DNA from: Ignavibacterium sp.
GTDB taxonomy: Bacteria > Bacteroidota > Ignavibacteria > Ignavibacteriales > Ignavibacteriaceae
NCBI GenBank assembly: GCA_025056745.1
Contig: JANWVQ010000031.1
Location: 1-41,737, forward strand
Direction: 5' to 3'
Length of the DNA stretch: 41,737 nt
Positions 390 to 1,872 of the stretch are shown here, piece by piece. Positions within the stretch are counted from its first letter, which is position 1; each line of letters starts with the position of its first letter. Position numbers and translations under genes: made by a program. The notes under the pieces were generated by a model, which was given only the letters and a program-made list of their open reading frames with translations, had not been told where the DNA came from and did no database searches.

Positions 390-1001
390 TTGGAAAGAAC
401 GGAAGCTTATAATAAACTTGTCGAATTAAAAAATATAGACTTGAGGAAATTAGCAGATAAATATGGAATTACCGTATTTAAAGGTGATAAGAAAAATAAA
501 GGTTGGGCAGGTCAGGTTATAGAACGCTATTTGGGTTTACCTTTAAATTCAAGTCAATCTCCTAATTTTGGTTCTTGGGAATTAAAAACAATTTCGTTAA
601 AAAGATTAAAAGACAACTCTTTAACAATAAAAGAAACAATGGCAATTACGATGATTGATCCTGTAAATGTTTCAAACACTGAATTTGAGAAAAGTCATTT
701 GCTTCTGAAAATGAGGAAAATATTAATACTCTCAAGAATTTGGGAATCAAAACTTGAACCTTCTTCAATAGTATTTGGTGTTCATACTTTTGATATTGAT
801 AATAAAGAGATTTATGAGCAAGTTAAAAAAGATTATGAATTAGTAAGGAATACCATATTAAATTATGGTTTTGAAAGCTTAACTGGAAAAATGGGAGTTT
901 TTATTCAACCACGCACCAAAGGAATTGGTCACGGTTCGATTTCAAGAGCTTTTTATGCAAGGGTTCCATTCTTAAAGAAAATAATTTTGGGAAATGATTA
1001 A
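390..1001 (+). CDS. MutH/Sau3AI-family restriction endonuclease
   Basis: 203 residues, similar in size to MutH (229 aa). Landmarks follow MutH in order: KGWAGQVIERYLG (residues 37-49, with the metal-site Glu45), WELKT (63-67, Glu64 and Lys66 of the E-x-K core), FEKSHLLLKMRKIL (about 99-112, with the family lysine) and a C-terminal GVFIQPRTKG stretch. By alignment, the first catalytic Asp of the PD-(D/E)xK core falls at or near Asn59 in the segment PNFGSWELK, so the acid may be replaced; this could be a subfamily trait or a loss of activity. The start is TTG at 390: an in-frame stop at 384 excludes anything upstream, and the nearby ATG at 378 runs straight into a stop. It overlaps the methyltransferase gene by 8 bases, which marks the pair as a type II restriction-modification system. 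Relatives cut GATC or CCSGG; GATC is inferred from the partner. Confidence 0.82.
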   Translation: MERTEAYNKLVELKNIDLRKLADKYGITVFKGDKKNKGWAGQVIERYLGLPLNSSQSPNFGSWELKTISLKRLKDNSLTIKETMAITMIDPVNVSNTEFEKSHLLLKMRKILILSRIWESKLEPSSIVFGVHTFDIDNKEIYEQVKKDYELVRNTILNYGFESLTGKMGVFIQPRTKGIGHGSISRAFYARVPFLKKIILGND

Positions 1002-1872
1002 ACCTTATTTCAAATCACAAGATAAAAACTTTATTTTATTGTTAGGGGATGTTTTTGACGTTTTACAGGAATTCGATTTTAAGTTTGATATGGTTTTCGC
1101 GGACCCTCCATATTTTTTGTCTAATGATGGACTTACAATTAAAAACGGTAAAATAACAAGTGTAAATAAGGGTGAATGGGATAAATCTTTTGGAATTGAA
1201 TTCATAAACGAATTTAATAGGAAATGGTTAAAACTTATTCGAGATAAGATGAAAGAAGATGCAACAATTTGGATTAGTGGAACTATGCATAACATTTTTA
1301 GTATTGGTCAGATACTCACAGAATTGGGCTTCAGGATATTGAATGTTATCACTTGGCAAAAAACAAATCCTCCGCCAAATTTTTCTTGTAGATATTTTAC
1401 GCACTCTACTGAGCAAATAATATGGGCAAGAAAAAATGAAAAAGTTGCACATTTCTTTAACTATGATCTGATGAAAGAAATAAATCAAGGAAAACAAATG
1501 AGTGATGTTTGGTTATTACCATCTGTAGCCAAATGGGAAAAATCTTGCGGTAAACATCCCACTCAAAAACCGTTAATACTTTTATCAAGAATTATTCTTT
1601 CATCAACTAAAAAAGGCGCTTGGATTCTTGATCCCTTTACTGGAAGTAGTACTACAGGTATTGCTGCTAATTTATTAGAGAGGAGATTTGTAGGAATAGA
1701 TAATAATGAAGATTATTTAAAGTTAAGCAAATGCAGAAAACTAGAAATTGAAAATGATATTAAATTTCGCAGATTACAAAATAAAATACAGGGTTTAAAG
1801 GAAAGAGAACAACTTCAGCTTTTTCTAACAAATGAACCAAAAGTTGATTATAATATTTCTCCTGAGTTTTGA
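994..1872 (+). CDS. DNA adenine methyltransferase, beta class, DpnA (M.DpnIIB)-like
   Basis: 292 residues. The catalytic motif DPPY (37-40) comes first and the AdoMet-binding motif DPFTGSSTTG (213-222) last, the order of beta-class amino-methyltransferases. The stretches between them, including TNPPPNFSCRYFTHSTE (124-140) and GKHPTQKP (186-193), resemble the second methyltransferase of the DpnII system, which makes N6-methyladenine in GATC and can act on single-stranded DNA. It is the protective partner of the MutH-like nuclease just upstream: the start ATG lies inside the last codons of that gene (overlap ATGATTAA), implying translational coupling. A C-terminal basic, helical tail follows motif I. 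GATC specificity is inferred from homology of both partners, not read from the sequence; an m4C activity is less likely given DPPY rather than SPPY. Confidence 0.9.
   Translation: MIKPYFKSQDKNFILLLGDVFDVLQEFDFKFDMVFADPPYFLSNDGLTIKNGKITSVNKGEWDKSFGIEFINEFNRKWLKLIRDKMKEDATIWISGTMHNIFSIGQILTELGFRILNVITWQKTNPPPNFSCRYFTHSTEQIIWARKNEKVAHFFNYDLMKEINQGKQMSDVWLLPSVAKWEKSCGKHPTQKPLILLSRIILSSTKKGAWILDPFTGSSTTGIAANLLERRFVGIDNNEDYLKLSKCRKLEIENDIKFRRLQNKIQGLKEREQLQLFLTNEPKVDYNISPEF

Follow-up and report, generated by a model that had tools for sequence, protein, structure and literature searches.

The analysed DNA, a 41,737-nucleotide stretch of the Ignavibacterium sp. genome (the window), contained a MutH-like nuclease gene directly followed by a DpnA-like methyltransferase gene, and the pair is probably a mobile restriction-modification system of Type II that targets GATC. 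The first metal-site position of the nuclease, Asp70 in MutH, was occupied by Asn59. This asparagine is a trait of the nuclease family and not a local lesion. A literature search, which did not extend to subscription papers or REBASE, gave no description of Asn at this position or of a MutH-like nuclease with a single domain whose partner is a DpnA-like enzyme. The nuclease family may well be annotated in REBASE. The features of the pair are listed in Table 1.

Table 1. Positions of the two genes and of their site residues in the window.
Feature	Positions	Strand	Basis
MutH-like Type II restriction endonuclease (predicted), single domain, 203 aa, TTG start	390..1001	+	ORF, Pfam and fold match
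Nuclease E45 codon (MutH E56)	522..524	+	E in 81/82, one row truncated
Nuclease N59 codon AAT (MutH D70 position)	564..566	+	N 80/82, D 2/82
Nuclease E64-L65-K66 codons (MutH E77-x-K79)	579..587	+	E64 and K66 both 82/82
Nuclease E82 codon (MutH E91)	633..635	+	82/82
Nuclease K107 codon (MutH K116)	708..710	+	82/82
Nuclease R175-T176-K177 codons (MutH R184-P-K186, DNA-contacting loop)	912..920	+	R175 and K177 82/82
DpnA-like beta-class N6-adenine DNA methyltransferase (predicted), 292 aa, ATG inside nuclease gene end	994..1872	+	ORF and Pfam
Methyltransferase motif IV DPPY	1102..1113	+	sequence
Methyltransferase motif I region DPFTGSST, 3' of DPPY (beta-class order)	1630..1653	+	sequence

Both open reading frames were as originally predicted, and they overlapped by 8 bases in the window. 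The TTG start of the nuclease was supported by its relatives, which begin at the same residue (Arg3 in 78 of 82 sequences).

The nuclease scored above the gathering cut-offs of PF02976 (MutH; 50.4 bits, cut-off 23) and PF15515 (MvaI_BcnI; 30.8 bits, cut-off 25), the latter over residues 31–80 only. No other family was found in the Pfam scan, including the DpnII-type endonuclease family PF04556. The scores were below the NCBIfam MutH equivalog cut-offs (63.1 vs 243 and 53.1 vs 229.9) and below that of NF040973 for Sau3AI (64.4 vs 300), and the 203-residue protein did not have the two-domain length of Sau3AI. An AlphaFold model, built from 51 rows, had a mean pLDDT of 91.6, with values below 50 in the loop of residues 55–58. 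When the predicted model was compared with known structures, it was well matched to MutH (2azo_B) with a Z score of 20.1 and an r.m.s.d. of 2.7 over 198 residues (Foldseek E value, 5.7e-12), and to the N-terminal half of Sau3AI with a Z score of 18.6. The match to BcnI/MvaI was weaker, with a Z score of 7.4. The sequence and model matches thus agreed with the MutH fold named in the original prediction.

The nuclease was aligned by HMMER with the solved MutH and by MAFFT with Salmonella MutH and four Sau3AI-like proteins. Both alignments agreed around the site and placed Asn59 opposite Asp70 of MutH. In the MAFFT alignment, residues Lys37, Glu45, Asn59, Glu64, Lys66, Glu82, His103, Lys107, Arg175, Lys177, and Tyr189 of the nuclease were paired with Lys48, Glu56, Asp70, Glu77, Lys79, Glu91, His112, Lys116, Arg184, Lys186, and Tyr212 of MutH, respectively. 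The earlier reading, in which Glu45, Glu64, Lys66, and Lys107 were kept and Asn took the place of the PD-type Asp, was therefore upheld. The position of Asn59 was occupied by Asp in all five comparison proteins, and MvaI and BcnI also carry Asp at the first metal-site position. The nuclease shares the single domain of MutH, but it has Ala in place of Phe94, its family is two residues shorter between the position of Asp70 and Glu77 (Glu64), and, unlike MutH, it is encoded in a pair with a methyltransferase gene. An equally short spacer, four residues long, separates the first site position from the Glu in BcnI (PMC4081073, in part).

The conservation of these residues was examined in 82 sequences, composed of the window protein, three relatives from viral contigs, one from a phage record, and 77 from the best 80 of 212 loci of a genome-contig scan, whose search patterns exclude residue 59. 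Three of the best 80 loci (L034, L068, and L075) were dropped for a broken reading frame; the viral remnant L004, the duplicates L092–L094, the own copy L005, the Sau3AI-like L007–L009, and the frameshifted L006 and L010 were left out of the counts. Viral relatives were few, and the remnant L004 also has the NFGSWELK sequence. Residue 59 was Asn in 80 of the 82 sequences, which came from many phyla, and Asp in two scattered members (L055 and L086). Residues Glu64, Lys66, Glu82, His103, Lys107, Arg175, and Lys177 were found in all 82, and Lys37 and Glu45 in 81, the remaining sequence being truncated. The MutH catalytic and DNA-contact residues were invariant in the family with the exception of Asp70 and Phe94. 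Furthermore, searches of 395 and 391 genomes with the nuclease model gave 12 further genes, one of which (L194) is probably identical to L024, and all 12 had Asn59. Most of them belonged to a second clade, whose sequence is PNGLGFELK-like where the others read PNFGSWELK. A quick tree required two changes at residue 59, and the simplest account is that Asn gave way to Asp on two occasions within the family.

Two explanations for Asn59 had been offered in the original prediction, the use of another acid by the subfamily, and a dead nuclease beside a methyltransferase that is kept alone. The first was not borne out by the alignment, since the invariant acids of the family, Glu45, Glu64, Glu82, and Asp148, all had counterparts in MutH. 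An acid both invariant and new to the family was absent; the closest candidate, Asp17 (79 of 82), was located opposite a Thr of MutH.

In the second explanation, the nuclease is catalytically inactive through Asn59, and the methyltransferase survives as an orphan. The D70A variant of MutH was inactive as an endonuclease (PMC10940147, in part), and therefore activity with Asn at this position is not a given. In addition, broken nuclease genes were found beside methyltransferases (L034, L068, L075, and G192), and the nuclease gene of G512 was split. However, Asn was the norm of the family, the other catalytic residues were kept, and Asn59 and Asp59 both occurred in otherwise alike proteins. Selection also stood against this explanation. 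The dN/dS values of 17 nuclease pairs, several with dS above 1, were calculated by the Nei-Gojobori method and were 0.044–0.167 in 10 pairs. The other seven pairs, with values of 0.25–0.62, all belonged to one Microcoleus-type cyanobacterial clade that includes the Asp-bearing L086; the methyltransferases of this clade had values of 0.08–0.22. The nuclease was therefore kept by purifying selection in most lineages, with seemingly relaxed selection in one, which makes a dead nuclease unlikely.

Asn or Gln can stand in for the acids of such sites (PMC1189080, in part), which provides a precedent for Asn59 in place of Asp70. Nothing on the MutH residues was found in the text of PMC3848065. An Asn that itself fills the metal-site position, which was outside the two options of the original prediction, is likelier than either a dead nuclease or another acid. 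The modelled geometry around Asn59 is tentative because of the low pLDDT of loop 55–58.

The methyltransferase matched PF01555 with 193 bits and had the motif order of the beta class; the GSST sequence of its motif I region is common in the methyltransferase family. It was 55.6% identical to a gene on the Lactococcus plasmid pSRQ700 and 56.4% identical to a gene of pUCCL641D. These values agreed with the DpnA-type partner of the original prediction, as judged from homology. The pSRQ700 system is named LlaDCHI, and its relatedness to DpnII appears in a cited title of the reference list (PMC6458302, in part). In both plasmids, the relative of the window methyltransferase was located between a D12 methylase gene and a PF04556 DpnII endonuclease gene, and three plasmids in addition to pSRQ700 carried this trio. 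The plasmid trios suggest that methyltransferases of one kind work with two endonuclease families, most likely with GATC as the shared target.

Among the best 80 of 212 genome loci, an m6A-type methyltransferase gene was found within 3 kb of the nuclease gene in 79, the exception being truncated by a contig end. The partner was a DpnA-like gene only in 57 loci, a DpnA-like and a Dam-type gene in three, a Dam-type gene with another methyltransferase gene in 15, and a Dam-type gene only in four. DpnA-like genes were thus present in 60 loci and Dam-type (D12) genes in 22, and the five D12 genes that were scanned all scored above the TIGR00571 cut-off of the Dam subfamily. In the nearest relative (L012; 76% identity), a Dam-type gene, the nuclease gene, and the beginning of a DpnA-like gene (78%) follow one another. 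The adjacent, co-conserved nuclease and methyltransferase genes corresponded to the gene pairing of Type II restriction-modification systems. The system resembled DpnII and LlaDCHI in its DpnA-like enzyme and in the D12 genes beside its relatives, but it differed in the endonuclease, which is MutH-like here and of the PF04556 family there, and in the own genome, where the best D12 hit remained below the cut-off (21.1 bits vs 22). The own genome had many other PF01555 genes.

The nuclease genes of two viral members, L011 in a 595-kb phage record (LR756511) and L003 in a viral contig, were located directly behind a Dam-type methyltransferase gene. In L014 (3008–3805) and 14 other Dam-type loci, a further methyltransferase of about 265 residues, with its motif I region near the N-terminus, followed the nuclease.

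Sau3AI, whose target is GATC, shares the MutH fold in its N-terminal half and a restriction role. The Sau3AI-like proteins differed from the nuclease family in their length of about 460 residues, in the Asp at the position of Asn59, and in the Cys and Ser at the positions of Arg184 and Tyr212 of MutH, where the nuclease family was MutH-like. Three Sau3AI-like loci of the phylum were compared; the neighbour was a PF00145 m5C methyltransferase gene in two and had no Pfam match in the third. The contrast with the m5C partner of Sau3AI, as drawn in the original prediction, was consistent with these loci. MvaI and BcnI are likewise MutH-like restriction enzymes of one domain, but have other target sites.

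In MutH, position 91, Phe94, and the loop of residues 184–190 are involved in GATC contacts, and residues Lys48, Glu91, Phe94, Arg184, and Tyr212 are key residues that were mutated (PMC10940147, in part). The nuclease kept the equivalents of Lys48, Glu91, Arg184, Lys186, and Tyr212 and had Ala for Phe94; GATC is therefore favoured, not proven. On the basis of this homology and the gene company, GATC is the likely target of the pair. The frequency of GATC in the own genome (221 kb) was 423 observed against 779 expected, a ratio of 0.54. The ratios in other genomes were 0.42 in G236, of the same genus and with no nuclease found, 0.64 in G132, 0.76 in G294, and 0.25 in G192. In the pooled best 80 of 212 loci, GATC (0.70) was behind CTAG (0.66) and GGCC (0.69). 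GATC avoidance was dropped as a test of specificity, because the congener without the nuclease avoided GATC more strongly. Ten cyanobacterial genomes were reported with predicted GATC restriction enzymes (PMC4390886, in part), and the best 80 of 212 loci of the nuclease family included 14 cyanobacterial loci.

CATG was almost absent from the own genome (221 kb including the window), with 9 sites observed against 467 expected (0.019), and its ratio in four related genomes was 0.25–0.68. A restriction-modification system with a target other than GATC, such as CATG, could account for this depletion. Beta-class enzymes such as the related CcrM have non-GATC targets. However, the GATC-contact residues Glu91, Arg184, and Lys186 were conserved, the genes kept Dam-type and DpnII-type company, CATG was hardly avoided in the loci of the relatives (0.87 vs 0.70 for GATC; best 80 of 212), and the own genome has many other methyltransferase genes. 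A different target is therefore improbable.

The pair was flanked by the terminal part of a methionine gamma-lyase-like gene (1–267) and by a gene at 2056–2745 that looks LiaF-like. The intervening region, 267–2056 of the window, was a variable spot with matching places in L180, L181, L182, L183, and L184. In G296, G302, and G294, the same neighbours were 157, 190, and 222 bp apart, respectively, and the spot was empty. The spot contained a Phd/YefM-ParE toxin-antitoxin pair in G298 and, in G236, two large genes within about 6 kb. These contents indicate that the pair is a local acquisition. Within the class, the nuclease model had matches in 14 of 391 genomes, one of them Sau3AI-like, which is a patchy distribution.

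The location and distribution also bear on a role in mismatch repair, in which the MutH-like protein and a Dam-like mark would serve strand discrimination and not restriction. The MutH fold, the MutH-like residues at the positions of Arg184 and Tyr212, and the occurrence of Dam-type genes next to 22 members (best 80 of 212) are compatible with such a module, but the scores were far under the MutH equivalog cut-offs, the distribution was patchy, members occurred in many phyla and on viral contigs, and the pair occupied a variable insertion spot. A repair module is very improbable.

In the restriction-modification system favoured here, the DpnA-like enzyme would place m6A on the GATC sites of the host genome; it is the sole candidate in the own genome among the two usual kinds of GATC adenine methyltransferase, D12 and DpnA-like. 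The MutH-fold nuclease would cut incoming DNA at unmethylated GATC sites. It would probably act as a monomer that nicks one strand after the other, like some other monomeric restriction enzymes such as BcnI, which cuts one strand at a time (PMC4081073, in part). The putative metal site would be composed of Glu45, Asn59, and Glu64 together with Lys66 and Lys107. Asn59, in place of Asp70 of MutH, probably coordinates the metal through its side-chain oxygen or holds the site together.

The DpnA of S. pneumoniae acts on single-stranded DNA (PMC3573125, in part), which would be a poor fit with the sole protective enzyme of a chromosome. DpnA-type enzymes here stand alone beside a probable GATC nuclease. 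As a tentative and rather doubtful suggestion, Asn may have stably replaced the essential first Asp in a widespread GATC restriction family and weakened the metal site, such that cleavage is slower, begins with a nick, or depends on Mn or an activator; this would let a DpnA-type enzyme protect alone. In PD-(D/E)XK nucleases, the first Asp is regarded as indispensable, in line with the inactive D70A variant of MutH (PMC10940147, in part). Across many phyla, the nuclease family retains the rest of the site but has Asn in place of this Asp, with two natural Asp variants, so that single substitutions, Asn to Asp or Asp to Asn, could probe the role of this metal ligand.

Next to the nuclease, a conserved protein (X178) of roughly 178 residues was encoded in 8 loci among the best 80 of 212 (L002:576-1121, L024:2113-2649, L027:4452-5000, L032:4455-4988, L039:3530-4069, L047:3511-4104, L059:5018-5554, and L088:5619-6164), and a further copy was present in L006 (2101-2628). 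X178 had no match in Pfam, NCBIfam, or PADLOC, and its predicted model (pLDDT 84.4) gave a best fold match with an unconvincing Z score of 4.2. In addition, the own genome (G000) contained genes for an MjaI-like and a BsaWI-like restriction endonuclease next to PF01555 methyltransferase genes, at L098:2511-3146 (G000:C16) and L097:737-1450 (G000:C130), respectively.
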